A stretch of 64,000 nucleotides of DNA, taken from Rhodococcus sp. PAMC28707. GTDB taxonomy: Bacteria; Actinomycetota; Actinomycetes; Mycobacteriales; Mycobacteriaceae. Both the position numbers and the translations under genes were made by a program. The DNA lies in assembly GCF_004795915.1 (NCBI RefSeq), contig NZ_CP039253.1, positions 1,426,001 to 1,490,000 of the forward strand. Direction: 5' to 3'. The notes below the pieces were generated by a model. That model ran no database searches, was not told where the DNA came from, and saw nothing but the letters and a program-made list of their open reading frames with translations. Every line of letters begins with the position of its first letter. Within the stretch, counting starts at the first letter, position 1. Below are positions 5,890-54,789 of this stretch, piece by piece.

Positions 5890-7130
5890 TGTGCGGCTTC
5901 TTCGGCGGTACGGAAAACCCAACGGAGGGCGACGAATCGACATACCGTTGCGACGAGATTCGCCACCACGAGAACGGCAAGTTCGAGGTGCCTGGATGCT
6001 CCTGGCACCCACGCGTGCAGTATCGCCAGTGCACCACTGGTCATGAGCAGCGCGAAGGCGAAGACGATCAATCCCTGAATCTGATGCTTGCCTGCGCTCT
6101 TCGAGCCCCGAATTCCGAACGTGAAGGCTCGATTTGCTGCGGTGTTGAACACTGCAGTGATCAGTAGGCCGAAGAAGTTGGCGGCCTGCGCTCCGATCAG
6201 CGGATGCAGGATCAAGTACAGCAATGCGTACGCTGCAGTGCTCGACACCCCGATGATGGCGAACCGAACCAGCTGTCCGACCATGCCGTGCGGCACACCT
6301 GGCACCAAAGGCTCCCGCCCGAGGCTCGTGCGCAGCTCGGCGATCGGCAGGGCGCCGCAAGCGAGAGCTCTCCCGATCCGCCAGCACCCCTGCAGGTCCT
6401 TGATCGCAGTATCGACGATGTCGACGCTGCTGTCGGGGTCGTCGACCCAGTCCACCGGAACTTCATGGATACGGAGTCCGACTCTCTCGGCGAGGACGAG
6501 CAGTTCGGTGTCGAAAAACCAACCGGTGTCCTGAACCAGCGGCAGTAGCTCCTGGGCGACGTCCGTCCGGATGGCTTTGAATCCGCACTGTGCATCCGAG
6601 AAGCGTGCGCGCAGCGAGGTACGCAGAATCAGGTTGTAACTGCGTGAGATCATTTCGCGTTTCGCGCCACGCACCACCCGCGAGGATCGGTTGAGTCGTG
6701 ATCCGATCGCGAGGTCGGAGTGTCCGGACACGAGCGATGCGATGAGCGGCATCAACGCATTGAGATCGGTGGAGAGGTCGACGTCCATGTAGGCCACAAC
6801 GTCGGCTTCGGACGCGGACCACACTGCCTTCAGTGCACGCCCTCGCCCTCGGTCGTTCAGGTGATGGACGCGGACTCCATCGATGTCACCGGCGAGACGA
6901 TGTGCGACGGCGAGGGTCCCGTCCGTGCTCGCGTTGTCGGCGATCGTGATCTGGGCGCGAAAGGGAATGTTCGCATCGAGGTGCTCGTGTAGCCGCCGGA
7001 CGCACTGCTCGAGATCGTTTTCCTCGTTGTACGCGGGAATGACCACCTCGAGGGTGGCGGTGGCTGTCGAATCCGACTCTCGGCGGTTGTCTTCGTTCCG
7101 TCCGGCTCGAAGTAGTGAGTTCGCTGTCAT
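5886..7130 (-). CDS. Bifunctional GT2 / GtrA-family membrane protein
   Basis: Residues 1 to about 270 form a GT-A family 2 glycosyltransferase like polyprenyl-phosphate sugar synthases. Seen: LEVVIPAYNEENDLEQC, DNASTDGT, the metal-binding VAYMDVDLSTD, and the FSDAQCGFKAI and DTGWFFDTELL segments. The rest is a four-helix GtrA domain (VGQLVRFAIIGVSSTAAYALLY onward), which is thought to flip the lipid-linked sugar. ATG at 7130 is preferred; longer frames add an Arg-rich non-family tail. It is translationally coupled to the GT39 gene downstream, so the two genes likely make and then use one lipid-linked sugar. Confidence 0.88.
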   Translation of the reverse strand: MTANSLLRAGRNEDNRRESDSTATATLEVVIPAYNEENDLEQCVRRLHEHLDANIPFRAQITIADNASTDGTLAVAHRLAGDIDGVRVHHLNDRGRGRALKAVWSASEADVVAYMDVDLSTDLNALMPLIASLVSGHSDLAIGSRLNRSSRVVRGAKREMISRSYNLILRTSLRARFSDAQCGFKAIRTDVAQELLPLVQDTGWFFDTELLVLAERVGLRIHEVPVDWVDDPDSSVDIVDTAIKDLQGCWRIGRALACGALPIAELRTSLGREPLVPGVPHGMVGQLVRFAIIGVSSTAAYALLYLILHPLIGAQAANFFGLLITAVFNTAANRAFTFGIRGSKSAGKHQIQGLIVFAFALLMTSGALAILHAWVPGASRHLELAVLVVANLVATVCRFVALRWVFRTAEEAAQ

Positions 7131-7210
7131 GACAACAGGTTCGGGCCTCGACCTGCGACGTCCCTGCCACCGAGCTGGCAATCAGCTGTGATCCGCCTAT
7201 CCTTGCAGCT

Positions 7211-7636
7211 ATGGCATCGGTTTTCAGCAAGATAATCAGCGGTGAGATTCCGGGACGATTCGTGTGGCAGGACGAGGACGTTGTGGCATTTTTGACTATC
7301 GCCCCGGTTACTCCAGGTCACACGCTCGTCGTTCCTCGCGAAGAAATCGATCAGTGGCAGGACGTCGACGGCGCCACCTTCGCCAAGATCACGGCGGTCG
7401 CGCAGGTGATCGGCACAGCAGTGCGGTCGGCGTTCGACGCACCGAGGGCAGGGCTGTTGATTGCCGGGCTCGAGGTTCCGCACCTTCACCTGCACGTGTT
7501 CCCGGCCTACGACATGGGTAACTTCGACATCTCCGGCGCAGACCCGAACCCGTCACCGCAGTCGCAGGACGAGGCCGCAGAGAAGCTGCGTGCCGCGCTC
7601 CGCGAGGCCGGCCACGGCGCCAACGTCCCTACCTGA
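7211..7636 (+). CDS. HIT-family nucleotide hydrolase (HinT-like)
   Basis: A 141-residue histidine-triad protein of the HinT branch, which hydrolyses nucleoside phosphoramidates. Seen: the N-terminal [20 protein letters not shown] segment, [12 protein letters not shown], and the catalytic triad motif [11 protein letters not shown] close to the C-terminus. Full length for the family. The gene is divergent from the glycosyltransferase pair with about 80 bp between them, and is followed 21 bp later by an MFS gene that may be cotranscribed. Confidence 0.93.
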
Positions 7637-7657
7637 TTTCGCTCGGTCCCCACGCGG

Positions 7658-9031
7658 ATGACCATCATCGACTCTGCCGTCGACCAGCGACGGTCCCTCA
7701 CGATCGCTGCCCTCGGCACCCTGCTCACTCTCGTCGCGTTCACGTCACCGCTGGCGACGATCAACTCCACCGCCGCCACCCTCGGCAGTGACGCTGCCGG
7801 TAAGACGTGGATTCTCAGTTCCATGAGCATCGGGCTCAGTGCGGCACTGCTCACCACCGGAACGCTGGCCGACGACTTCGGGAGGCGTCGCACGTTCGTT
7901 TTCGGCGTGCTCGTGCTGGCGGTCGCCTCGGTGGTCTGCGCTGTGTCGCCGAATACCGTGATCTTCGTTCTTGCGCGCGTGCTGCAAGGACTGGGCGGCG
8001 CCGCCGTGATCGCGTCGAGCCTCGGAATCATTGCGCATACTCACCCGGCAGGCCCACGCCGTGCGCATGCCAGTGGCGTGTGGGGCGCCAGCCTCGGCGC
8101 AGGCATCGCCCTCGGCCCTCTCCTGGTCGCGACGCTCGATCGGCTGGCAACCTGGCGTGACGCGTATTGGCTGGTAGCGGTCGCCGGCGCACTGCTCGCC
8201 GTCGCCGCGCATCGATTCGTGCGGGAGTCGACGTCCGATACTCCTCGTGGACTCGATCCCGCCGGCGCGCTCCTACTGGCGTTCGGGTTGAGCGCTCTTC
8301 TCGCTGCCCTCGTCGAAGGGCGCCAAGGGTGGGTGCGGCCACTCCCGTTGATTCTCTTCGCGGTATCGGCGGTGCTACTGATCGTTTTCGTCGTCGTCGA
8401 ATACCGAAGTCGCGCAGCAATGCTCGATCTGAAACTGTTCACCCAACCCGCGTTCGTCGCAGCTACGGTCGCGGCAGTCGTCACTGGTGCGGGGATCATC
8501 GCGCTGATGTCGTTCATGTCCGGATTTCTCGGTAACGCCTACAACATCGATGCTTTGGGCGCGGCGCTGTTGCTCTTCGCCTGGTCCGCTACTTCCGTCG
8601 TGACAGCCCTTCTCGCGCGACGTATTCCAGCCCGCGTCACCGGCAGTGTGCAACTGGCAGCAGGTCTGATCGGGGTTGCGATCGGGCAGCTCGCAATGCT
8701 CGGCCTGTCGGTGGACTCGACCTGGCCTCGACTCCTCCCGGGCCTGCTGTTCGCAGGTATCGCGAGCGGAGTTCTGAACGCAGCACTAGGGCGCGAAGCC
8801 GTCGCGAGCGTCCCGGCCGGACGTGCGGGGATGGGCAGCGGCGCGAACAACACCGCCCGCTATGTCGGATCTGCGGTAGGTGTGACCGTGGTTGCGGTGT
8901 TGGCGGTGCCGCGAGGAACGAGTTCTCCTGCCGCGCTCGTCGAAGGTTGGAACTCCGCAGTCCTGTTCACCTCCGCAGTATCGGTAGTCGGCGCACTGGT
9001 CGTGCTGCTGTGCCGGGGAAAGAAGAACTAG
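7658..9031 (+). CDS. MFS efflux transporter, DHA2-like
   Basis: A 457-residue major facilitator with twelve to fourteen hydrophobic segments. Seen: the loop 2-3 signature GTLADDFGRRRTFVFG (MFS motif A), RVLQGLGGAAVIASSLGII (motif B region) and GVWGASLGAGIALGPLL (antiporter motif C), which together indicate a proton-coupled exporter. The substrate cannot be read from the sequence. It lies 21 bp after the HIT gene, with its end facing the histidine kinase gene 7 bp away. Confidence 0.9.
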   Translation: MTIIDSAVDQRRSLTIAALGTLLTLVAFTSPLATINSTAATLGSDAAGKTWILSSMSIGLSAALLTTGTLADDFGRRRTFVFGVLVLAVASVVCAVSPNTVIFVLARVLQGLGGAAVIASSLGIIAHTHPAGPRRAHASGVWGASLGAGIALGPLLVATLDRLATWRDAYWLVAVAGALLAVAAHRFVRESTSDTPRGLDPAGALLLAFGLSALLAALVEGRQGWVRPLPLILFAVSAVLLIVFVVVEYRSRAAMLDLKLFTQPAFVAATVAAVVTGAGIIALMSFMSGFLGNAYNIDALGAALLLFAWSATSVVTALLARRIPARVTGSVQLAAGLIGVAIGQLAMLGLSVDSTWPRLLPGLLFAGIASGVLNAALGREAVASVPAGRAGMGSGANNTARYVGSAVGVTVVAVLAVPRGTSSPAALVEGWNSAVLFTSAVSVVGALVVLLCRGKKN

Positions 9032-40113: not shown

Positions 40114-40751
40114 CGGCGGGCGGTACAGTCGACGAAGTGACTGTGCGACCGGAGACGACCAGCCCTTTCAAGAGCGCTGTGACCAGCCTGATGCGCACCA
40201 CCATCCTCGATGCGCTCCACTCCCTACTGCTCGAGCACACCTGGTCGAACGTCAACATGACGGACGTCGCCAAGACTGCGGGGGTCAGTCGCCAAACCCT
40301 CTACAAAGAGTTCGGCACCAGAAAGGGTTTGGCCCAGGGCTACGCGTTGCGCCTCACCGACACCTTCGTCTCGGCCGTCGACAGCGCAATCTACGCCAAC
40401 GAGAACGACAGCCTCCGCACGTTGTATCTGGCCTTCACCCAGTTCTTCGGGCGGAGCGCCTCCGACCCACTCGTGTTGTCGATACTGACCGACGACCCAC
40501 CTCCGGATCTACTTCGCCTCGTCACCACCGAAAGTGGCATTCTGCTCGAACATGCAGCATCTCGACTTGCCGAGACCTTCGAGCACAGCTGGATTCGGGC
40601 CTCACCGCACAACGCCGACGTCCTCGGCCGCGCCATCGTCCGGCTGGCATTGAGCTATATATCGATGCCACCGTCGAATTCCGCCGACGTCGCCGCCGAC
40701 ATGGCATTACTGCTCGCCCCCTTCGTCGACACCGTCAAGGATTCGGCCTGA
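40110..40751 (+). CDS. alkU: TetR-family regulator AlkU
   Basis: A 213-residue TetR protein: [48 protein letters not shown] (helix-turn-helix, pattern only), then a helical effector domain. The alkB-rubA1-rubA2-alkU order is the standard Rhodococcus alkB1 cluster, and the last gene represses it until alkanes or their products are present. The start is GTG at 40110, set by a GTGA overlap with the second rubredoxin. Its end overlaps the convergent E1 gene by 45 bp. Confidence 0.92.
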
Positions 40752-42893
40752 CGCGTCGATGATGCTGTCCTCGGACAGCAGAACCTCGAGCGCCGCGTCG
40801 CCCAGGGGAATGAAGCTGTCCTTGCTCGCCACCCTGCCGACGATGCCGTCGAAGCCTGCGTCGGCCAGCGCCGCGATCACTCCTTCACCGACTCCGCCCG
40901 TGCTGCGAGTCTCGTCGACCACCAGGACTCGGCCGGTCGCCCGAGCATGATGTTCGATGTCCGCGATGGGCAGCGGAGCGATCCAGCGCATATCCACCAC
41001 GCGTACACCGATGTCGACTCTTTCGAGCTCCCGAGCACAGCGCAGGCTCATCCGGACACCGTTACCGAACGTGACGATCGTCAGATCGTTTCCCTCGCCG
41101 TACACCCGCACGCGGCCCACCTCCACGGGCTCGGTCGGGTAGCTACTCATCCACTCCCCATCACCGTCCTCGTACAGATCTTTGGTGTGGGACAACGCAA
41201 TCGGCTCGAGAAAGATGCACACCGCACCGTGACGAACCGCGGCGTCGGCACAGGCCAGCATCATTGCGGCAGCATCGTCCGGCCGCGACGGCGACGCTAT
41301 GACGATCCCGGGGATATCCCTCAGCGCTGCAACAGAATTGTCGTTGTGAAAGTGCCCGCCGAAGCCCTTCTGATAGCCGTATGCAGCGATACGGACCACC
41401 ATCGGGTTTCGGTACTGCCGATTCGAAAAGAACTGCAGTGTCGCCGCTTCACCCCGAATCTGATCGGCAGCATTGTGCAGGTACGCCAGGTACTGAATCT
41501 CCGCAATCGGCAGTAATCCTGAAAAACCCGCTCCCGCAGCGAGTCCGAGTATCGCCTGCTCGTCGAGAACGGTGTCGAACACACGCGCAGGCCCCACTCT
41601 GTCCAGCAACCCACGCGTGACGCCGTAGACACCACCCTTCCTGGCGACATCCTCACCGAACAGAACAGCCTGCCGATAGCGTTCGAGAACCTCGAGCAAC
41701 GCTCGATTCACCGCCTGCGCAAATGTCAGCGGAGCCCCTGCCCCTGCCCCCGCGACAGTCGCTGCCGCAGACGATATAGGGCCTGCCTGCGGCGTCGAGG
41801 CGATGTCGCGCATCATCTCCGACAGCGGCTTCATCACCTCGGCCGCGGAACCGAGGTGCGGTAGTTCCGCGATCTCGCGCGCGGCCCCGATCACCTGAGC
41901 ACGCTTGGCTTCGTAGCGCTCCAGCACGTCCTCGGCAGTGAGAGCGCCATTCTCGATCAACCACCGTGCCGTGCAGAGAACCGGATCTCGCGCATAGTCG
42001 GCAGATATTTCCGAAGCTCCACGGTACGCAGATTCGACGTCGGATCCGGCGTGGCCCATCAAGCGGACGGTCCGCAGATGCAGAAAAGCAGGCTTGCGGT
42101 GCGTGCGCACCCAGGTCGATGCCGCCGTCGCCGTCGCGAGAACCTCGTGCAGGTCACTGCCGTCGGCGAAGAAGTATTCGAGTCCGCGGCGTTCGGCGAA
42201 GTTGGACGCGATCCAACCCGCCGGTGTCCGCACGCTGATTCCGATGCCGTTGTCCTCGCAGACGAACAGCAGCGGCAACGGCACGCCCTGGTAAGCCGAG
42301 TGAACAGCGGTGTTGACGGCACCCAGTGCCGTCGAATGGTTGGCCGACGCGTCGCCGAAACTGCAGATCACGACGGCATCCCCAGGCCACGGTGAGGGCA
42401 CACCGAGCTTTTTCGCTCGTGGAATCGAGAATGCGACGCCGACTGCGCGGGGAAGATGCGAGGCTATGGTCGAGGTCTGTGGAATGACGGCAAGGTCGGC
42501 TCGGCCGAACACTTTGTGACGGCCACCGGACATCGGCTCGCTCGTCGCCGCGACGAGGCCTTCGAGGACGTCGCGTATCGGATCGCTGCCGCCGCCCTGG
42601 CGTGCACGTTCGAGGTAGAAGGCCCCTGAGCGGTAGTGCAACAACGCCGGGTCCGTCGGTCGTAGTGCACCGGCAACCGCTGCGTTGCTCTCGTGTCCCG
42701 CGCTACCGATCGTGTAGAAACCGCGCCCGATCGAGCGGAGCCAGCGCGCTACGAGATCGAGATGTCTGCTGCCGAGCTGGGCGTCGAACAGCTCGAGGAT
42801 GCGGTCGGTCGTCGCTGACCGGTTCACCGAGCTCCTGCCTGAGCAGAGGGAACCGATTCGATCCAGAAAGTGCTCGTCGATCGGTTCGGCCAT
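40707..42893 (-). CDS. Fused alpha/beta E1 of a 2-oxoacid dehydrogenase (TPP-dependent)
   Basis: A 728-residue single-chain E1. The alpha half (residues 1 to about 350) has the TPP/Mg motif CSFGDASANHSTALGAVNTA and LPLLFVCEDNGIGISVRTPAGWI, and the beta half (from about 380) has FAQAVNRALLEVLERY, VLFGEDVARKGGVYGVT, FDTVLDEQAILGLAAGAGFSGLLPIAEIQYL and VVDETRSTGGVGEGVIAAL. Such fused E1s act on branched-chain or other 2-oxoacids with a separate E2 and E3, none of which is nearby. It starts 8 bp after the dioxygenase stop, so it is the last gene of the mycosporine operon, or read through from it. Confidence 0.9.
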   Translation of the reverse strand: MAEPIDEHFLDRIGSLCSGRSSVNRSATTDRILELFDAQLGSRHLDLVARWLRSIGRGFYTIGSAGHESNAAVAGALRPTDPALLHYRSGAFYLERARQGGGSDPIRDVLEGLVAATSEPMSGGRHKVFGRADLAVIPQTSTIASHLPRAVGVAFSIPRAKKLGVPSPWPGDAVVICSFGDASANHSTALGAVNTAVHSAYQGVPLPLLFVCEDNGIGISVRTPAGWIASNFAERRGLEYFFADGSDLHEVLATATAASTWVRTHRKPAFLHLRTVRLMGHAGSDVESAYRGASEISADYARDPVLCTARWLIENGALTAEDVLERYEAKRAQVIGAAREIAELPHLGSAAEVMKPLSEMMRDIASTPQAGPISSAAATVAGAGAGAPLTFAQAVNRALLEVLERYRQAVLFGEDVARKGGVYGVTRGLLDRVGPARVFDTVLDEQAILGLAAGAGFSGLLPIAEIQYLAYLHNAADQIRGEAATLQFFSNRQYRNPMVVRIAAYGYQKGFGGHFHNDNSVAALRDIPGIVIASPSRPDDAAAMMLACADAAVRHGAVCIFLEPIALSHTKDLYEDGDGEWMSSYPTEPVEVGRVRVYGEGNDLTIVTFGNGVRMSLRCARELERVDIGVRVVDMRWIAPLPIADIEHHARATGRVLVVDETRSTGGVGEGVIAALADAGFDGIVGRVASKDSFIPLGDAALEVLLSEDSIIDASGRILDGVDEGGEQ

Positions 42894-42901
42894 GGCTGAT
42901 T

Positions 42902-43693
42902 CTAGCTATCGACGCGATGGTCCACGCTTGTCTCGAACTCGGCCACCATTCCGCGGTGCATGACGCGGTCACCGACGACACCGCTGTGGTCCGCGCGGTG
43001 CATGACGCAGCGGTTGTCCCAGATGACGAGGTCACCGGGTGACCACGAGTGCTCGAGTACGTTCTCCGGTCGTGTCGAGTGCTCCACGAGATACCGGATC
43101 AGCGTTGCTGCTTCGGCTTCCGTTTTGCCAGTCACCGCCACACAGCGGGCGGGCGCGGAAAGATACAGAGCCTTCCGTCCGGAGATCGGATGCACTCGGA
43201 CCAGCGGATGCTTCGCTGACACATCCTCGAATCCATCGAGTCCGGTCACCACGTGCGTGACAGTTCGCCCGTCGATGTCGGCGCGGATCTCGGCAGGCAA
43301 GGAGTCGTAGGCCTCGTACTGGTCACTGAACAGCGTCTGGCCGCCCGTGGTCGGGACTTCCACTGCTCGCAGCGAGGTGTAGGCAGGCGGATGCTCGATG
43401 TAGGTGGTGTCGACGTGAAACGTCGACTTCGGTCGGGTCGCTCTTCCGACATTGCTGATCACGTTGAGATCGGGATAGCCGTCGAGCGGGCTCTCCCCTT
43501 CGGTGAACATCAGGTCACCGAAGGAACGAAGAAACGCCAGGAACTGGTCGTCGTCGATCTCGCGATCGGGCATGACTGCGACGCCGTGCCGAGCAAGAAG
43601 CGTCGCGAACTCCTCGACGTCTTCGGCGGTCAAACGGGCGGGGTCGACTTCGGTGATGCGGACCCCGATGGGGTGCAGAACCTCGTGTTTCAT
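42902..43693 (-). CDS. TauD-type Fe(II)/2-oxoglutarate dioxygenase of the MAA operon
   Basis: A 263-residue TauD/TfdA-family oxygenase. Facial-triad HxD in STFHVDTTYIE, distal His in DLVIWDNRCVMHRADH, and the 2-oxoglutarate-binding Arg in RVMHRGMV are all present. ATG at 43693 overlaps the mysD stop by four bases. In cyanobacteria, MysH, a 2-oxoglutarate dioxygenase of the PhyH family, turns disubstituted mycosporines into palythines. This enzyme belongs to a different branch of the same superfamily and could do a similar C-N or hydroxylation reaction. That role is inferred from position only. Confidence 0.88.
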   Translation of the reverse strand: MKHEVLHPIGVRITEVDPARLTAEDVEEFATLLARHGVAVMPDREIDDDQFLAFLRSFGDLMFTEGESPLDGYPDLNVISNVGRATRPKSTFHVDTTYIEHPPAYTSLRAVEVPTTGGQTLFSDQYEAYDSLPAEIRADIDGRTVTHVVTGLDGFEDVSAKHPLVRVHPISGRKALYLSAPARCVAVTGKTEAEAATLIRYLVEHSTRPENVLEHSWSPGDLVIWDNRCVMHRADHSGVVGDRVMHRGMVAEFETSVDHRVDS

Positions 43694-44727
43694 CGGTTCC
43701 CCTCCTCTATCGCCAGGGCGAACAGTTCGTCGAGAGGAATGCCTGCCGCCGCGGCCATGACGGCGATGACACTGCTCGGGGAGTACGAGCAGTAGAGACC
43801 GGCTTCGAGGAACCACGGGTTTCCGTCTCGATCGATGCGGAAATCGAACAGGCTGTACTGACGGCACCCCAGCGCGACATGGCATGCCCTGGCGGCATCG
43901 AAGACTTTCTCGGTGATGGGATCGTCGCTGTCGACTATCCAGGCGCGAGTGGCCTCCTTGGCAACGAGGTACAGCTCACCGTCGTCGGTCCGGTCGAGTT
44001 TGTCGGCGCGGCCACGGATCGGGTTCGACACCTCGTCGACGGCGTACTCCTCCAACGGTAGGCACACCAGGTCGCCGTCGCGGACGATGATCCCGCAGCG
44101 CACCTCGCGGCCCAATTCGATATACGACTCGATGAGTGCCGATTGCGAGTACTGCAACGCCTCGTTCACGGCGGCGGCGAGTTCTCTCGGATCGCGAACC
44201 AGTGTCACCCCCATCGAATTGTCGGAATCGACGGGCTTGACCACGACCGGCACCATCGCTCTCGACGATTCCGTTTTCGTCAGGTCGCCGCGGGAGACTA
44301 AGACCCCGTCTGGAACTGCGACGCCGGCTGCCGCGACGATAGCCCGGGCAATGTTCTTCTCTGCCGTCATCGCCATCACTTCCGGCCGGTTCCCCACGTA
44401 TGGAACGCCGAGCAGTTCGAACAGCGAGCGGTATGTTGTCATCCCGGGCCGACAGAACATCTGGGGAACGACGACATCGATATGCCGGCTGGATATTTCC
44501 GAGATTGCGTGGCTCAGTGAAATAGGTTTCGCTGCAGCGATACTCGACGACTCGAGGCTTTCCGGAAAGCGCCAGCATCCGTCCGGTGAGACGAATGCGA
44601 TTCGAAGACTGTAGGCCGGGTTACCCGCGAACGCATCGAGGAATCCCCCGGCGTAGACGCGCGACAGATCGGCGTTGAAGTCGTCGACCGCCGAGCCCAC
44701 CAGGACCAGTACCGATGTCGGCGACAT
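43690..44727 (-). CDS. mysD: MysD, D-Ala-D-Ala-ligase-like mycosporine synthase
   Basis: A 345-residue ATP-grasp enzyme that attaches a second amino acid (serine or threonine in known cases) to mycosporine-glycine as an imine. The sequence follows cyanobacterial MysD: VLVLVGSAVDDFNADLSRVYA, FVSPDGCWRFPESL, PQMFCRPGMTTYRSLFELLGVPYVGN, VVKPVDSDNSMGVTLV, SALIESYIELGREVRCGII and YSLFDFRIDRDGNPWFLEAGLYCSYSPSSV. ATG at 44727 shares one base with the mysC stop (TGATG), which decides the start; the frame open to 44940 is out of the family. It is followed by the dioxygenase with a 4-base overlap. Confidence 0.94.
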   Translation of the reverse strand: MSPTSVLVLVGSAVDDFNADLSRVYAGGFLDAFAGNPAYSLRIAFVSPDGCWRFPESLESSSIAAAKPISLSHAISEISSRHIDVVVPQMFCRPGMTTYRSLFELLGVPYVGNRPEVMAMTAEKNIARAIVAAAGVAVPDGVLVSRGDLTKTESSRAMVPVVVKPVDSDNSMGVTLVRDPRELAAAVNEALQYSQSALIESYIELGREVRCGIIVRDGDLVCLPLEEYAVDEVSNPIRGRADKLDRTDDGELYLVAKEATRAWIVDSDDPITEKVFDAARACHVALGCRQYSLFDFRIDRDGNPWFLEAGLYCSYSPSSVIAVMAAAAGIPLDELFALAIEEGNR

Positions 44728-46025
44728 CAGTCCCCTCCATTCTCGACGAGTTTGCCGATGTTGAAATCTATTCGCGTCCAGCCTCGCCCGGACTTCAGGT
44801 TCTTCAGCAGCAGTGAAGGAATCTGCAGGTGATGAACCAGCAAGTAGGGCAACGGGTCCCAACGTTCGTACACCGCATCGGTTCCGCGCAGAATCACTCC
44901 GAGTCGATGTCGGCGCTGCGACTCGGTGAGCAGCCGCCACAGTTCGTGATAGATCCAGTACGTCGGGCGCGAGGACTGGGTGGGTTCGACGACCGAGTGA
45001 CCGTCCTCGAGGTACGCAGCAGCGAGATCCGGGTGGTCGTAGAACATGGTGATGGCCGAGTGCGTGCGCGGATTACATTCGATCGCGTAGACCTGCCCGT
45101 CCGAAGCCTCGATGAAATCGAACGACAACTGGCCGGTGACACCGAGCGTTTCCACGAATGTCTCTACCCAGGAACGAATCTCGGGCTTATCGCTCATCTC
45201 GTAGTTGACCTGGAATGCCGAGGACTCGCAGCAAGCGTAGACCTGCAGCGCACCGCCGCGCACGGTTCCGTGGGTACAGTACTCCTGACCGGAGATGAAC
45301 TCCTGCAGTATCCACGGGTCGTCCTCGTCGATACCGAGGCTGCGCGCGAAAGCAGCATTCCGCTCCGGGGTGCTCCGGGACAGGCGTGTCAGATCCATAC
45401 GCCCGACGGGGTTGTAGGCGATGCGTTTGAGAATGTACTCACGACCGGGAGCGAAATCGAAAGTATCGATCTGCTGCGGGTCGGTGATCCGCTTCCAGTC
45501 TGGAACTCCAAGTCCCATCGACTCCGCCATCCGAGAGAACCGCGATTTGTCGTCGAGCATGCGCACGGTCTCGGAGTCTGCGTGCACGACTTCGCAGTAT
45601 CCGTCGAGTATGTTCCGCGCGTCGGCATCGTGAATGCTCGCCGCTGGACTCGCCACCGGAACGAACACGTCGACACCTTCACGGACGACCACGTCGCGCA
45701 AGGCTTTTGCGTACCCGGGGTCGGTGGGCTCGGGCACGCAGTAGAAGCGATCGACTGCCCGAGAGAACCGATGCCCGGTGAACCGATACTTGGGTGATTC
45801 GACGAGGACCACTCGGTGACCTGCCAGGTGGAACGACCGTGCCAGTTGAAGCGCTTTGGTCATCTTTCCGCCACTGATCAGAATTGTCCGGCTCGATGAA
45901 CCCTGTGCGTCGAAGGGTGGATCGAATCGCCGGGCAACGGCGTATCCCACTACGGCAAGGTCGAGTGGCAGCGTGGCGATCAAACCTGCCAGGGCCCCGA
46001 CCGTGCGCACTGCCGAAGACACCAT
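44727..46025 (-). CDS. mysC: MysC, ATP-grasp 4-deoxygadusol-glycine ligase
   Basis: A 432-residue enzyme that uses ATP to join glycine to 4-deoxygadusol, giving mycosporine-glycine. It matches cyanobacterial MysC throughout: a hydrophobic N-terminal helix (TVGALAGLIATLPLDLAVVG), LISGGKMTKALQLARSFHLAGH, RFSRAVDRFYCVPEP, YCEVVHADSETVRMLDDKSRF, ILKRIAYNPVGRMDLTRL, WILQEFISGQEYCTHGTVRGG, CCESSAFQVNYE and YAIECNPRTHSAITMFYDHP. ATG at 46025 is 5 bp after mysB. The hydrophobic start suggests loose membrane association. Confidence 0.95.
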   Translation of the reverse strand: MVSSAVRTVGALAGLIATLPLDLAVVGYAVARRFDPPFDAQGSSSRTILISGGKMTKALQLARSFHLAGHRVVLVESPKYRFTGHRFSRAVDRFYCVPEPTDPGYAKALRDVVVREGVDVFVPVASPAASIHDADARNILDGYCEVVHADSETVRMLDDKSRFSRMAESMGLGVPDWKRITDPQQIDTFDFAPGREYILKRIAYNPVGRMDLTRLSRSTPERNAAFARSLGIDEDDPWILQEFISGQEYCTHGTVRGGALQVYACCESSAFQVNYEMSDKPEIRSWVETFVETLGVTGQLSFDFIEASDGQVYAIECNPRTHSAITMFYDHPDLAAAYLEDGHSVVEPTQSSRPTYWIYHELWRLLTESQRRHRLGVILRGTDAVYERWDPLPYLLVHHLQIPSLLLKNLKSGRGWTRIDFNIGKLVENGGD

Positions 46026-46030
46026 GTCCG

Positions 46031-46846
46031 CTACACCGCTATCCGTCGAATGAGCGTCACACCGTCTCGCAACGGCAGAAGGACCTGCTCGACGCGGGGG
46101 TCCTTCGCGACGTAGTGGTTGAAGTCCGCGATCGCGTCGCCGTTGCCGGTCCGACCATCCGCCGGCGCGTAGGGCTGGCCCTGCATCAACGTGTTGTCCA
46201 CGACGATGACTGCGTTCGCGGTCAGCAGATCGGTATCGAGCAGCGTCCGGTAGTAGTCGAGATATCCGGTTTTGTCCGCATCCAGGAATACGAGGTCGAA
46301 GGGACGTGAGGTTCCGTTGAGCCGACGCAGAGTCTCCGAGGCCGGTCCGACTTCGACGACGATGCGCGCACCCGCTGCCGACTCTGCAAAGCTTTCCCGC
46401 GCGAAGCCGGCCACGTACTCGTCGATCTCACAGGCCACCACTTCCCCGTGCGGCGGGAGAGCTTCTGCCATGGCCAGCGCGGAGTAGCCGGTGAACATGC
46501 CGATCTCGAGCACTCGCGTTGCTCCGGTCATGTGCACCAGGAACTTCAGCAACTGGCCCTCGACCTGCCCGGACAACATTTCCTGCTCCACTGGCCGCGA
46601 AGCCCAGTCGGCAGTATGCGTCCGCTGCGACAACGCTGCCAGAGCCGAAGACTCTTCCGTGGTGCAGCGTTCGAGGTACGGATCCAGCCCTGCGGCCAGA
46701 TCTCGCATCCGGGTGATCCTGCTCATCAGCTCGTGGGGAATCGACGCCACATCTGCCAGCAGTTCGGTCACCTCCCGCAATTCCGCGGCAAGGATGGTCG
46801 ACGGTGTGACCGGGCGCGGTTCCGTTCGAGAGTCGATGTCACTCAC
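46031..46846 (-). CDS. mysB: MysB, O-methyltransferase of 4-deoxygadusol synthesis
   Basis: A 271-residue SAM-dependent O-methyltransferase, which methylates the cyclised product of MysA to 4-deoxygadusol. Seen: [32 protein letters not shown] (motif I, V-L-E-I-G-x-F-T-G), [52 protein letters not shown] and [14 protein letters not shown]. It belongs to the class I, cation-dependent (CCoAMT-like) type usual for MysB. GTG at 46846 overlaps the mysA stop by four bases; longer frames from 46972 read through mysA. Confidence 0.92.
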
Positions 46847-48057
46847 CGACTCCGGTCGGAGGTGAACATGTCTACTCCCTCTCCGCCGCGGTCGAAGTCC
46901 AAGCAGATCTTCTTGTGCAACGTCAACACGTCGGCGAGTTCTGCCGTCGTCACATCGTTGAGGAATCGACACGCTCCGATCGGGTCGGGAACTGCGGCAC
47001 GCAGGATGCCATCGCGAGTCTTGAGGATCGAACTCGTTGCCTCGGAGAGTAGTTCGGACGTCAGGTAGTCGCTGTCGAGCGCGAGGCCGAGGCGGGACAT
47101 GGTCCAGAGTACTCGATCGCGCTCTTCGGAGGTGATGTGCCCGCGCTGCTCGGCGAGAGTGGTCGACAATGCCATATCGATATTGATTGCATGTCCGTGG
47201 AAGAACGGCGCCGGTGGCGTCAATTCCAGCGTCGGGCTCCAGGTGTGACCGAAGGCGATGACGCGATCCAGTTCGATCTCGTGTAGATTCGGCGCCTCGA
47301 GTTCGAGCATGGTGTCGATGGCCTGATACGTCAGACTGTCTGCAACAGCGCGTAATTCGGCTGTCCCATCGAGGTGACCGAATCTGGTGCGGAGCAGTTC
47401 CGGGCCGTGTTCGTCGAGCATGTCGAAAATTGCACTGTTACCGACTACGGAGATCTTGATCAACTCCGCCATGCCGTTCCGGACCTGATCTTCCGGTAGC
47501 GAACGAAGGAAAGAAAAGTCCAGCAGGACCTTCTGCGAAGCGTGGTAGGCGCCCAGACGATTCTTGTGCTTTCCGAAATTCACCGCGACCTTGATGGACA
47601 CACTTGCATCGATCAGCCCGATCAGCGTCGTCGGGATTCTGATGTACGGCGTGTTGCGTCGGTAGCTTGCGCACGCGTACCCGGCGACGTCGGTAGTGAG
47701 CCCGCCGCCGACGACCAGGACCGGTTCGGTGCGCACCAGCCCGAACCGGTCGAATTCGCCCACGATCTGCTCGAACGTCTCGAGCGACTTGGCGGTCTCG
47801 GCGATCTTCACCGGCAGCACGGTCAAGGCAATGTCGTGGTGTTGGAAATACGCACGGATCTGCTCACCGTAGATCGAGTAGACGACCTCGTCTACGACCA
47901 TGAGCGCCCGCCCGTACTGCCGGTAGCTGTCCGCCAGTTCGGTATTGCCCACCGAGAAGACACCATCCACATAGAGAAGGTCGTACTCGATCTTCTCGTA
48001 TCCCTCGACATGGAAGGCACGTTCGGTCGCAGTCACCTTTGCTTGCATGCTGCTCAT
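46843..48057 (-). CDS. mysA: MysA, sedoheptulose-7-phosphate cyclase (DDGS type)
   Basis: A 404-residue member of the sugar-phosphate cyclase family (dehydroquinate synthase-like, NAD and Zn dependent). Seen: [68 protein letters not shown] (given as its core blocks), [14 protein letters not shown] with the Lys, and zinc ligands E, H in [13 protein letters not shown] and [13 protein letters not shown]. Its DASVSIK sequence and the mysB/C/D neighbours favour 2-demethyl-4-deoxygadusol synthase over the EEVS type (DAGIGAK-like in antibiotic producers). ATG at 48057 overlaps the HAD gene stop by four bases. Confidence 0.92.
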
Positions 48058-48722
48058 CGGTTGCCTTCGGTCAGCGAGCGGAGCCGATCCGCGTCGAGAT
48101 GATCGACGGTTTCCACCGCCGCGGAGAAGTCGCCCCCTACCGTGTTCGCGTTGGGGAACGCGACGCAGCGAACGTGTGCAGCTACAGCGGCACCGACGCC
48201 ACCGACGTTGTCCTCGATAGCAACGCAGTTCTTTGCGTTCTCGCCGAGGCGCCCGAGGGCGAACATGTACGCCGCCCGATCCGGCTTGCCTTGCGAGACA
48301 CTCGCGGAATCGACTACTACGTCGAACAAGTCGACGTCGACAGCCGTCAGAGCGCCGAGCAAAGCATTGACGTTTTCTGGGGAGGTGGTGGTCACGAGAC
48401 CGACCTTGATGTCGTACTTCTTCGCATCGGCGATGGTCTCGACGACGCCGGGGCGCGGGTCTACGTCGGAGTTGGCCAGCAGCTTCTGAAAGATCTCCGA
48501 CTTCGTGGAATGCACTGCTGCGGAGTCGACTTCCTCACCGCGTGAGTGTGCATATTCGGCGATGCGAGCCGCGCCGCCGTTGCTCGCCAGCATCTCGATG
48601 TAGTCCTGACGCTCCCAGGTCCAGCCCAGATCGTGCGCGGCAAAGGCGTCGTTGAATGCTTGTCGTTGAATTTCGGACGTATCGGCAAGCGTGCTGATCG
48701 ATCCGAACAGGATGGCAGCCAT
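48054..48722 (-). CDS. HAD-fold protein lacking the catalytic aspartates
   Basis: A 222-residue beta-phosphoglucomutase/CbbY-like protein, first in the mycosporine operon. Where active HAD enzymes have D-x-D-G-T-L, this protein reads [17 protein letters not shown], so both the nucleophile and the acid/base aspartate are gone (Gly and Ile). Motif II ([12 protein letters not shown]), the lysine in [16 protein letters not shown] and motif IV ([13 protein letters not shown]) remain, as does the four-helix cap. ATG at 48722 with GGAAGGAA upstream is the start. It is unlikely to be a normal phosphatase; binding or regulation of a phospho-sugar, or an unusual mechanism, is possible. Confidence 0.85.
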
Positions 48723-48818
48723 CGGGTTCCTTCCGCGAAATGTGGTGACGTGCTTGGGGACTTGTTGCAAGTGTGGTGACGGCAAGTGTCATCCAGCCCG
48801 GCGCGCGCATCACGAATA

Positions 48819-48845
48819 AGTAACGGAAAGTAACAGAACAGTAAC
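48819..48845 (-). promoter_or_regulatory. Three AGTAAC direct repeats in the mycosporine promoter region
   Basis: On plus, AGTAAC occurs at 48819, 48829 and 48840, with about one helical turn between copies (10 and 11 bp); read in the operon direction it is GTTACT. They lie about 100 bp upstream of the HAD ATG in the 176-bp gap that must hold the operon promoter. Helical-phase direct repeats are typical for OmpR/PhoP-type or SARP-type activators. No cognate regulator gene is adjacent. Confidence 0.5.
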
Positions 48846-51373: not shown

Positions 51374-51484
51374 GCGCGGCCGTCAGACAGTGCGCCGAGA
51401 GGTAGCCCGTCGGTCGCGAAGTGCACACTCTGTACCGTGGAGCGGAGGACTTCGACCACGGAACACCGATTGGGAAGGATCTTT

Positions 51485-52726
51485 ATGTCTCAGCCTGCAC
51501 GGCTCGAGAAGAATCCGGACACGGGCTACGTAGCACTACTCGGCTGGAGCTTGCCGGCTGTGGAAGCCCTCGACAAGTTCGACCGCAGGTATGTCGTCGT
51601 GGCACCGGATTGGGCCGAGCAATACTGCACTGAGCACGATATTCCCTATCTTCCGTGGAACTTCGAACGTCTCAACGACCGTTCGCTCGAGATCGCCGAA
51701 ACACTGCGCGATATGGGTGTCGACGTCGCGATCCCGCTGTACGAGGAAACTGTCGAGTGGGCCGGCGCCATCAACTCGGTACTGCTGGGCAACCCACGCC
51801 TGTTCGGGCAGGCGATGTTGTTGCGAGACAAGTCCCTGATGAAGCGTCGTGCACAGCTCGGTGGGATTCGCGTCGGGATCTTCGAGGAGGCTCACGACCG
51901 TGAAGATGTGATCCGCTTCCTCAAACGCGTCAACCAAACTCTCCTCAAACTCGACGGCGATCCCAACGACCCGATTCACGTCAAAGCGTTCGACAAGGCA
52001 GGCTGCCTCGGCCACCGGGTGATCAGGACACCTGACGATGTCGACTCGATCCCCGACGAGGAATTCCCGGCTCTGATGGAATCGCATCTCGACGGCTGGG
52101 AGTTCGCCGTCGAAGCCTGGATCCACAACGGAAAGATCAAGTTCCTCAACATCTCCGAGTACGTGACCCTCGGATACTCGGTGTTCGTACCCGCCACCCC
52201 CGAGCTCGAGAAGTACCGCGATCAGATCACCGTGCAGATCGAGAAGCTGATCAAGACCTTCGAGATCGAATTCGGGTTCATCCACCCCGAGTACTTCGTC
52301 ACCAGCGACGGCGAGATGTACTTCGGCGAAGTTGCTTACCGGCCACCAGGTTTCAAAGTTTTCGAGCTACTCGAGCGCGCCTACGGCTTCAATGCTTACC
52401 AAGGCCTGGTACTGGCGTTCGACCCGAAGACCACCGAGGAAGAGATCGACGCCTTCTTCCCCAAGGAGGTCGTCGACGCCACCGGTGTTGCCGGCTGCTT
52501 CGGTGTGTACCCCCGTCGACGCGTCGTCAGCAACCTCGTCATCCCCGACGTCACGTTGGACGACGACTACTACGAGACGAACGACCTCTCGGCGCCCGTC
52601 GAGGAGACCGTCACCAAGCGTACGGCTTTCGGTACGCACTGGGGATTGCTGTACTTCTTCGGCGAAGATCCGTACCGGATGCGTGATCTGCTCAAACAAC
52701 AGGAAGAATTGGACTTCTACGTGTGA
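51485..52726 (+). CDS. ATP-grasp ligase of unknown substrate
   Basis: A 413-residue ATP-grasp protein. Seen: a preATP-grasp strand (GYVALLGWSLPAVEALDKFD), FDKAGCLGHRVI, MESHLDGWEFAVEAWIHNGKI, FLNISEYV and GEVAYRPPGFKVFELLERAYGFNAYQG, the last corresponding to the metal-binding E-x-x-x-R-x-x-G of carboxylate-amine ligases. It is only distantly related to MysC. ATG at 51485 has GGAAGGA 5 bases upstream. Its stop overlaps the start of the next gene by four bases, so the two form a unit. Substrates cannot be read from the sequence. Confidence 0.88.
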   Translation: MSQPARLEKNPDTGYVALLGWSLPAVEALDKFDRRYVVVAPDWAEQYCTEHDIPYLPWNFERLNDRSLEIAETLRDMGVDVAIPLYEETVEWAGAINSVLLGNPRLFGQAMLLRDKSLMKRRAQLGGIRVGIFEEAHDREDVIRFLKRVNQTLLKLDGDPNDPIHVKAFDKAGCLGHRVIRTPDDVDSIPDEEFPALMESHLDGWEFAVEAWIHNGKIKFLNISEYVTLGYSVFVPATPELEKYRDQITVQIEKLIKTFEIEFGFIHPEYFVTSDGEMYFGEVAYRPPGFKVFELLERAYGFNAYQGLVLAFDPKTTEEEIDAFFPKEVVDATGVAGCFGVYPRRRVVSNLVIPDVTLDDDYYETNDLSAPVEETVTKRTAFGTHWGLLYFFGEDPYRMRDLLKQQEELDFYV

Positions 52727-54789
52727 GGCAGGAACTCGGGGACGACCACACGCCACCGGCACAGTCGACGGAAGAACCGTCGGTCACCGATGCGGCCACA
52801 GCGGCCGATCGAGCATTGGCTTCGCGCCTCGCGCAGCTCGATCACGCAACCGAAGCGTTCGCAACTGCTCCGGAGTTCACCAAGAGCAGCAAGCTCCGAC
52901 GCGTCCTCGACTCTTTGCATCGTGTGCTGTCTCAACCCGGCGGCTGTGCAGCGATTCGGGAGCGTGCCGAACTCCTCGAGAACGCGGGACTGTTCGCCGG
53001 ATCGGACTGGGCGCAGCCGGACATCCTCGTTCCGGCGTTCGTCGGCCCGAGCCTGCGAAGCGGCAACAACGACACCGTAGTGCTCGAGGCGACGAGCGAA
53101 CTTCGGATGGTGGCGATCGTTGCCGGCGAATACGACCACCCGGCGGTGACGCCGGAAAATGCTCGCCGGTTCCTGTCCCAGGTCCTCGCCATGAACCTCG
53201 AAGTGTTGTTCACAGCGCCGTCGGAGGCAGAGCGAGTTCGACTCGGGCGCACGGCTCATCTCATTCGCGATCTGTTCGGCTACGTAGCCGAACAGATCGG
53301 TTACGACAGCGTTCTCGACGAACTCCTCGAAGAGATCTGGCGTGTGTTGCGTCAACGCCCGATTCAGGTGGACAACGTCAAGGCGATGGTCACCCGCATC
53401 GCGATCTACCGCGACGACCCCACCGTGGATCTCGGTACGTCCGGGCAGGGTCTCGACCGGTTGATCACGGCGCTGTTCGGCACTACCGAAGCGTGTCGGG
53501 AGGACCCCGGGGTCGACGTCTATCGGTCGCGGCTCGCGGTCATGGATTCGGAAGCGCTGCAGTTCGAGGCACGCGGTTTCGCCCGGGCAATGCACGACAC
53601 CGGGTTGGTCTCGCCTTATCACGCGACCCTCATGCGTTACCTGGTCGAGCACAACAGTTACGTACTGGCCGAGGCGCTCGGACTGTCCGACACCGGCAGG
53701 ACCTGTCTGCAGCGATATCCGGAACTCGTTCAGCGGCTCGTTTCCGAGACCGTGTATCCGGAGACAGCACAGTGCCTGTACGGCCTGGCGCTGCTTCTCG
53801 ACCGAGGGACTCTGTACGAGCCACCGGTAGTCCCTTCCCTGTGGCGGCAGATTTCACTGAAGCTGTCACCGAAGGTGCGCGAGAAAATGCTTGTCGCATT
53901 CGGTCCGGGTCCCGATCCGGAGTCGCGGTTGCTCGGTGGACTGTTGTCGATGCTCGGCCAACCACTCGGTGTCGGCCAAGGTGACAATCCCACGTGCCAG
54001 TCTGCGCGAGCACTGTCCATGTGGGCGTACAACGATCCCGACTATCTGCTGCAGATGGTCGTCTGGGCTGCACGTGACGACGAGATCGTCATGCACTTCG
54101 AGGGTCGACCGATTTCCTCGACCGATAGCGTGGGCGGCGTCGCGACCACCGATCCGATCGACCTCGATCCGGTTTCGTTGCTGCTGGTGCCGCACCTCGA
54201 CCGAATTTACGCAGAGATGGTCCGACGCTGCGCCGACCGTGAAGGCGACCCGCATCGCTGGGTCAATCCCGAGTTCCACGGCTGGTGGTCTGCTCGGGAA
54301 TTCCACATCAACGTCGACGTCGCGACCGGAAATCTGATCGACCTCGACGGCTTCATTCGGCAGTTTCACGCCTCCTATCACCCTGCGTACAACGGTGGTC
54401 AGCCGCTGATTCACCCGCAACCGGCCGGCGTCGCCGTCACCGACAGTGCGGCCCGCTACATCGGCTGGCATGCGATCGCCATCCTGCGTGTCACCGCCGA
54501 TCCCGACGGCATCATGCGGGTCTATTTTTTCAATCCGAACAACGACAGCGGCCAGGATTGGGGTGACGGCGTCGTCGTCGGGACCGCAGGAAATGGTGAA
54601 CGAGCCGGTGAAGGATCCCTGCCGTTCGACCAGTTCGCCTCTCGCCTCTACATCTTTCACGCCGATCCGCTCGAGGAAGGTGAGCCGGACAAGATTCCGG
54701 CGGAAGATGTCGAAAACATCATCGGATTCATCGAACGCAGTTGGGGCGCAGAAAGGCTGCCTCGGGGCGCGATCGAGGAAGATCGGTAG
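52723..54789 (+). CDS. Large protein of unknown family, possible Cys-His-Asn hydrolase domain
   Basis: A 688-residue soluble protein without signal peptide or membrane segment. I recognise no named family. The first 400 residues are helical. The C-terminal third has GDNPTCQSARALSMWAYND with Cys425, YIGWHAIAILRV with His583, and YFFNPNNDSGQDWGDG with Asn604, the order and spacing of a papain-fold Cys-His-Asn triad. This is a hypothesis from pattern. It begins in the stop of the ATP-grasp gene (GTGA overlap at 52723-52726), so both are made together: a ligase and a possible amidase or peptidase. Confidence 0.65.
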   Translation: MRQELGDDHTPPAQSTEEPSVTDAATAADRALASRLAQLDHATEAFATAPEFTKSSKLRRVLDSLHRVLSQPGGCAAIRERAELLENAGLFAGSDWAQPDILVPAFVGPSLRSGNNDTVVLEATSELRMVAIVAGEYDHPAVTPENARRFLSQVLAMNLEVLFTAPSEAERVRLGRTAHLIRDLFGYVAEQIGYDSVLDELLEEIWRVLRQRPIQVDNVKAMVTRIAIYRDDPTVDLGTSGQGLDRLITALFGTTEACREDPGVDVYRSRLAVMDSEALQFEARGFARAMHDTGLVSPYHATLMRYLVEHNSYVLAEALGLSDTGRTCLQRYPELVQRLVSETVYPETAQCLYGLALLLDRGTLYEPPVVPSLWRQISLKLSPKVREKMLVAFGPGPDPESRLLGGLLSMLGQPLGVGQGDNPTCQSARALSMWAYNDPDYLLQMVVWAARDDEIVMHFEGRPISSTDSVGGVATTDPIDLDPVSLLLVPHLDRIYAEMVRRCADREGDPHRWVNPEFHGWWSAREFHINVDVATGNLIDLDGFIRQFHASYHPAYNGGQPLIHPQPAGVAVTDSAARYIGWHAIAILRVTADPDGIMRVYFFNPNNDSGQDWGDGVVVGTAGNGERAGEGSLPFDQFASRLYIFHADPLEEGEPDKIPAEDVENIIGFIERSWGAERLPRGAIEEDR

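Follow-up and report, generated by a model that had tools for sequence, protein, structure and literature searches.

Organization of the locus

We describe here a predicted mycosporine-like amino acid (MAA) operon in Rhodococcus sp. PAMC28707, which has a single-contig genome of 4.73 Mb. The window, meaning the whole 64,000-nucleotide stretch that was analysed, corresponds to bases 1426001-1490000 of that contig. Seven open reading frames (ORFs), all on the minus strand, span positions 40707-48722 of the window, and their folds were assigned through Pfam and NCBIfam scans. In reading order they are:

48054-48722, minus strand: HAD-fold protein (PF00702/PF13419), a CbbY relative whose motif I (FGSIS) is without the catalytic Asp pair, probably a pseudo-phosphatase
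46843-48057, minus strand: mysA, desmethyl-4-deoxygadusol synthase (DDGS), assigned from its 3-dehydroquinate (DHQ) synthase-like domain, its match to 5tpr and its place in a tree
46031-46846, minus strand: mysB, O-methyltransferase with a GTG start (PF01596), 53-57% identical to cyanobacterial copies in MysA loci
44727-46025, minus strand: mysC, ATP-grasp mycosporine-glycine synthetase (NF005315), 51-58% identical to cyanobacterial MysC
43690-44727, minus strand: mysD, D-Ala-D-Ala-ligase-like (PF07478) with loop residues L254/A262, 52-54% identical to two cyanobacterial MysD proteins
42902-43693, minus strand: tauD, Fe(II)/2-oxoglutarate dioxygenase of the TauD family (PF02668, 195 bits), with H93-x-D95...H232 and R247 intact
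40707-42893, minus strand: fused alpha/beta E1 enzyme dependent on thiamine diphosphate (PF00676, PF02779 and PF02780), adjoining the operon but outside its conserved part

The match of mysC to NF005315 (420 bits) lies above the cut-off of 406 for that family, which carries the name 'hypothetical protein'. Coordinates and strand agree with the initial annotation of this DNA, and the junctions it gave were reproduced: in the order HAD/mysA/mysB/mysC/mysD/tauD/E1 they measure -4, -4, +5, -1, -4 and +8 bp, negative values being overlaps. From this spacing, all seven genes would be carried on a single transcript. Scanning for a terminator-like site on the coding strand between 40500 and 43200 found none, and no sigma-70 promoter was found in the two stretches scanned.

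Conservation of the operon in actinobacteria

When GTDB genomes were searched with MysA, the best 80 of 81 stretches yielded 73 distinct loci, of which 61 are actinobacterial and 12 cyanobacterial. L008 and L013 were counted as Rhodococcus on the basis of their place in the tree and their titles, despite a cyanobacterial label. The order HAD-mysA-mysB-mysC-mysD-tauD is shared by the majority of these actinobacterial loci, and such repetition means that the arrangement is not due to chance. A HAD gene is present in 59 of the 61, the exceptions being L055 and L072 (which meets a contig end), and in all 59 it lies upstream of mysA at a distance of -4 to 134 bp. TauD matches occur in 58 of the 61 loci and are missing from L024 (cut), L034 and L055; those in L033 (cut), L043 (decayed) and L066 (in two pieces) are only partial. 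In L051, L053 and L066, tauD lies between mysB and mysC. The window has the actinobacterial arrangement, with HAD directly before mysA and TauD inside the operon. Thus, HAD-mysABCD-tauD is the standard actinobacterial MAA operon.

The cyanobacterial mysABC(D) clusters share mysA, mysB and mysC with the window, and mysD gave a tblastn match in two of the 12 loci. Unlike the window operon, they showed neither HAD nor TauD in the 12 stretches examined, some of which are short. Furthermore, the genomes behind five of these 12 loci contained no HAD match at E 1e-20.

Co-occurrence was then counted in a genus set of 37 genomes, including that of the window (cut-offs: mysA E 1e-100, HAD E 1e-25, TauD E 1e-50). 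Among the 31 genomes with mysA, HAD is present in all 31 and TauD in 30, the one without TauD being G020, which corresponds to Rhodococcus sp. 1168. At the same cut-offs, neither HAD nor TauD was found in any of the six mysA-negative genomes. The Fisher value for HAD and mysA (4e-7) is overstated, as related genomes are not independent; the useful fact of this test is that where mysA is absent, HAD and TauD are absent too.

An operon of this kind has already been published. The GATOR-GC study (PMC11888242) describes HAD and TauD as conserved features of MAA clusters in actinobacteria. The window shares HAD, mysA-D and TauD with the clusters named there (R. fascians D188 and Pseudonocardia alni) and differs from them in that its clade has E1 after tauD. 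Similarly, a TauD-family protein, MysI, has been named in cyanobacteria (PMC10510106). The view of the initial annotation that mysD, mysE or mysH marks the end of known clusters is therefore not supported. Its proposal that the three additional genes extend the pathway survives in part: TauD is conserved in the operon, whereas context and co-occurrence speak against E1, as detailed below.

The core enzymes MysA to MysD

Against solved chains, MysA scored 551 bits for 5tpr and 273 bits for 4p53. We take 5tpr to be a cyanobacterial DDGS and 4p53 to be the 2-epi-5-epi-valiolone synthase (EEVS) ValA; their chain labels read '3-dehydroquinate synthase' and 'Cyclase', respectively. In a tree of 75 rows, built without L072 and L075 because their MysA is partial, 5tpr, the window protein and 71 other MysA proteins form a 73-row group with support of 100/100. 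Outside it lie 4p53 and the genome's own DHQ synthase (DHQS), whose branches are very long (4.85 and about 10). As the contrast consists of one EEVS and one DHQS row on such branches, the separation alone was used. Grouping with EEVS or DHQS had been set beforehand as the outcome that would overturn the mysA assignment; MysA instead groups with 5tpr, and its identity as an EEVS or DHQS is ruled out by this separation. Together, the domains, the tree and the order in related loci, with mysB, mysC and mysD following mysA, uphold the initial identification of mysA to mysD in pathway order.

The MysD loop positions were set through alignment to the two cyanobacterial MysD proteins. The window protein has the Leu-Ala pattern (L254/A262), as do 59 of the 63 aligned MysD rows, and this pattern has been linked to shinorine production (PMC11983340). 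Kineosporia babensis (L055) has a MysD with the pattern F-S, and a 1.5-kb stretch separates its mysA from its mysB. Three mycobacterial loci (L030, L032 and L046) are without mysB in the MAA locus, and searching the rest of these genomes, two of which are metagenome-assembled, for MysB gave no match at E 1e-20 or better. The product in these organisms may thus be without the O-methyl group.

A CbbY relative without catalytic aspartates

The closest solved relative of the HAD protein is CbbY (E < 1e-52 in a profile search), followed by plant CbbY (7e-35) and others at 3e-17 and weaker. An AlphaFold 2 model of the protein (pLDDT 94.3, pTM 0.90) has the CbbY fold, and its best fold match is CbbY D10N in complex with xylulose 1,5-bisphosphate (TM 0.89, 35% identity). 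The protein also shares the motif II-IV residues of CbbY, a xylulose-1,5-bisphosphate phosphatase (PDB 4uar/4uat/4uau). The pocket residues T111, T113, K146, E170 and D171, together with G49, G50 and R53, are invariant in all 60 aligned rows.

However, the catalytic Asp pair of CbbY motif I is missing, a fact that the initial annotation overlooked. Where wild-type CbbY reads LFDVDGTLAET, the window protein reads FGSIS, and all 60 rows have G7 and I9 in place of the pair. GSIS is present in all of the 120 best of 1603 HAD homologues. In addition, the cap Lys that follows the GG pair in CbbY is Ala in the window protein and in the family consensus. HAD phosphatases require both motif-I aspartates. 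With Gly and Ile in every row, the protein is not classed as a CbbY phosphatase; it is probably a pseudo-phosphatase, with its pocket otherwise kept, that is tied to MysA.

These missing residues, in the copies examined, are what is new here. The partial text of PMC11888242 contains no mention of them that we could find, and none was found in searches of one open-access library, subscription papers being outside the search.

Alternatively, the protein could have phosphatase activity through an unorthodox nucleophile, its substrate being a sugar phosphate or a phosphorylated MAA intermediate. The invariance of the motif II-IV residues and of parts of the CbbY-like cap is in keeping with this, as a ligand is probably still bound. 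Both motif-I aspartates, however, are gone from all 60 rows. Moreover, the substrate of DDGS is sedoheptulose 7-phosphate and its reaction includes a dephosphorylation (PMC4426668); DDGS itself removes the phosphate, so that an extra phosphatase is unnecessary for that step. We therefore regard an active phosphatase as very unlikely. The pseudo-phosphatase, encoded directly upstream of MysA, would then be a non-catalytic partner of the first step. A more specific version, offered tentatively as a possibility short of even confidence, is that a CbbY-type sugar-bisphosphate phosphatase (the substrate of the CbbY enzyme being xylulose 1,5-bisphosphate; PMC10212915) was disarmed and is now an obligate non-catalytic partner of actinobacterial DDGS.

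The TauD dioxygenase and the likely product

Residues H93, D95, H232 and R247 of TauD are invariant in all 56 aligned rows of at least 235 aa, three short rows having been left out. The protein thus has the HxD...H triad and the Arg that we take to be the metal and 2-oxoglutarate motif of the TauD family. Among oxygenases of MAA clusters it is comparable, by family description only, to MysI (TauD family) and MysH (phytanoyl-CoA dioxygenase family).

From these assignments, the likely products are shinorine (absorbing at about 334 nm) and then, through TauD, a palythine-type compound (about 320 nm). According to PMC11888242, which relays a 2018 meeting abstract at second hand, the R. fascians D188 operon with HAD and TauD yielded shinorine, palythine and palythine-serine in Streptomyces coelicolor. 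The enzyme might instead hydroxylate or trim another position, for example the C3 residue, giving a product that is not a palythine. Cyanobacterial MysI, also of the TauD family, has been proposed to act on the C3 glycine (PMC10510106). Set against this is the second-hand D188 report, which names palythine and palythine-serine, and we consider a non-palythine product unlikely.

Rhodococcus sp. 1168, a near relative of 1163, BP22 and H36-A4, is of interest in this regard. Its tauD (L043:14368-14850) is decayed, having lost approximately residues 52-101 and with them H93 and D95, and the best full-length TauD match that its genome still contains is a paralogue of 33% identity. HAD and mysABCD match at full length in the same locus.

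The E1 gene is a neighbour of the operon

The initial annotation took E1 to be a pathway gene. It stands beside the operon in the window and in four of the 61 actinobacterial loci (L003, L004, L043 and L068), all members of one five-genome clade. At E 1e-60, E1 matches occur in 27 of the 37 genus genomes: the five of the clade (94-100% identity), 11 at 70-75% and 11 at 55-57%. The two groups, 16 genomes at 70% or more and 11 at about 55%, were counted apart. With all 27 matches, both E1 and mysA are present in 22 genomes, mysA only in nine, E1 only in five and neither in one (p = 1.0). For matches of at least 70% identity, the corresponding numbers are 11, 20, five and one, so that E1 is found in 11 of the 31 genomes with mysA and in five of the six without it (p = 0.066). 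Outside the clade, the latter comparison becomes 6/26 against 5/6 (p = 0.011), in the direction opposite to association. Across species, E1 thus shows no positive association with mysA.

In the 11 sister genomes with a 70-75% E1, the stretches read show this gene away from mys genes. In ten of these 11 genomes, a TetR gene resembling the one at 40128-40751 of the window lies within 1.5 kb of E1, and TetR, rubredoxin and alkB genes are near E1 in all 11 of the larger sister stretches. A second TetR gene and a major facilitator superfamily (MFS) gene are upstream of E1 in nine of the 11; of the exceptions, G028 (L110) is without both and L116 ends at a contig end. Genes in the E1 stretches were called with a crude caller (length x GC bias at third codon positions), and TetR and MFS were then checked by Pfam and tblastn. 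The 55% group has a different look: in one of its loci, L118, an E1 beta gene and an E2 gene precede E1 (Pfam), and L117 and L119 appear similar by eye.

A clade member, H36-A4 (L068), retains TetR (6568-7140) and MFS (7327-8889) directly before HAD (9336), with E1 behind tauD (15177), which places the MAA operon between MFS and E1. In the window genome, TetR-MFS is no longer upstream of the operon, and an MFS remnant, approximately 84% identical to the C-terminal part, lies at L123:9005-9670 (G000:C1:3970998-3971669, at 3.97 Mb). The simplest reading, in which the direction of the change is inferred, is that insertion of the operon separated MFS from E1 in this clade and that MFS was later lost or moved. 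Such a rearrangement would account for the position of E1, 8 bp behind tauD.

The 2-oxoacid dehydrogenase E1 could still be a tailoring enzyme of this clade, yielding a new mycosporine together with TauD. It has three catalytic domains, lies on the same strand as the operon and is kept in all five clade genomes, in four of them with an 8-bp gap. Nevertheless, in the stretches read, its 70-75% orthologues lie away from mys genes in 11 other genomes of the genus, five of which are without mysA; E1 usually follows TetR-MFS; neither count revealed a positive association with mysA; and the operon is without an E2 gene. Such a role is highly improbable. On genomic context and co-occurrence, E1 was rejected as a member of the operon, and it is best described as a neighbour through rearrangement, with no tie to the pathway found. 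R. fascians has E1-like genes on its fas plasmid; a plasmid search gave no place of at least 60% identity.

Upstream repeats and other nearby genes

A further feature was found by a scan of upstream regions:

48809-48845, minus strand: four direct repeats GT[TG]A[CT], candidate response-regulator site

The repeats are spaced 11/10/11 and start 123 bp upstream of the HAD start. A perfect set is present in 14 of 60 upstream regions (350 bp each), the other 46 scoring 13/18 or less. The 13 regions that share it, out of 59 besides that of the window, belong to Rhodococcus, Rhodococcoides and Williamsia. No second site with a score of at least 15 was found in the 64-kb window other than its own reverse complement. 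The background rate of 0.0025 was drawn from loci that hold sites, and is thus contaminated and not used as a probability. According to PMC13189361, sites for MtrA consist of direct repeats of motifs of this type, separated by 5-6 nt, and ectoine genes are activated by MtrA under osmotic stress. The repeats found here look like an OmpR-family (MtrA-like) site; that MtrA might control the operon is a guess.

Further upstream, an ATP-grasp-like gene (51437-52726) is 90-100% identical in 30 of the 37 genus genomes; in six further loci, as in the window clade, it is found no more than 10 kb from the MAA operon. As it is present in all six mysA-less genomes, it was ruled out as an MAA gene. The neighbouring 688-aa ORF (52723-54789) has no Pfam or NCBIfam match and is 96-98% identical in the four clade loci.

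Discussion

Overall, we consider it probable that the window carries a standard six-gene MAA operon with a non-phosphatase HAD partner, a palythine-type product and E1 as a neighbour. In the proposed pathway, MysA would convert sedoheptulose 7-phosphate to desmethyl-4-deoxygadusol, which MysB would methylate; MysC would then add glycine and MysD serine, giving shinorine. TauD probably oxidises the glycine-derived side chain, and loss of this side chain would lead to palythine-type products. The HAD protein, whose gene immediately precedes mysA, probably lacks phosphatase activity and may act as a conserved partner of the first step. E1 would have come to lie 8 bp behind tauD through rearrangement, outside the pathway.

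Several observations weigh against this reading. The co-occurrence counts come from related genomes of one genus and are not independent events. The genome of L034, although HAD is present, gave no TauD match, and in L055 mysABCD stands without either HAD or TauD; these exceptions indicate that neither protein is needed for the core. Finally, the tauD-E1 gap is 8 bp in four of the five clade members (68 bp in L004), which makes co-transcription of E1 likely, even if its role is not in MAA synthesis.

This work tells the pathway genes HAD and TauD apart from a rearranged neighbour, so that an E1-modified mycosporine need not be chased. The decayed tauD of Rhodococcus sp. 1168 offers a natural test of the role of TauD, through comparison of its products with those of its relatives. 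The published question of what the HAD protein does is also sharpened: both aspartates are lost in the actinobacterial copies examined, while the pocket and the place before mysA are kept, which hints at an unrecognised helper role for this HAD relative. If it is indeed a disarmed partner of DDGS, it might, for example, hold sedoheptulose 7-phosphate for MysA or gate MysA activity, and it would be a pseudoenzyme dedicated to the synthesis of a natural sunscreen.

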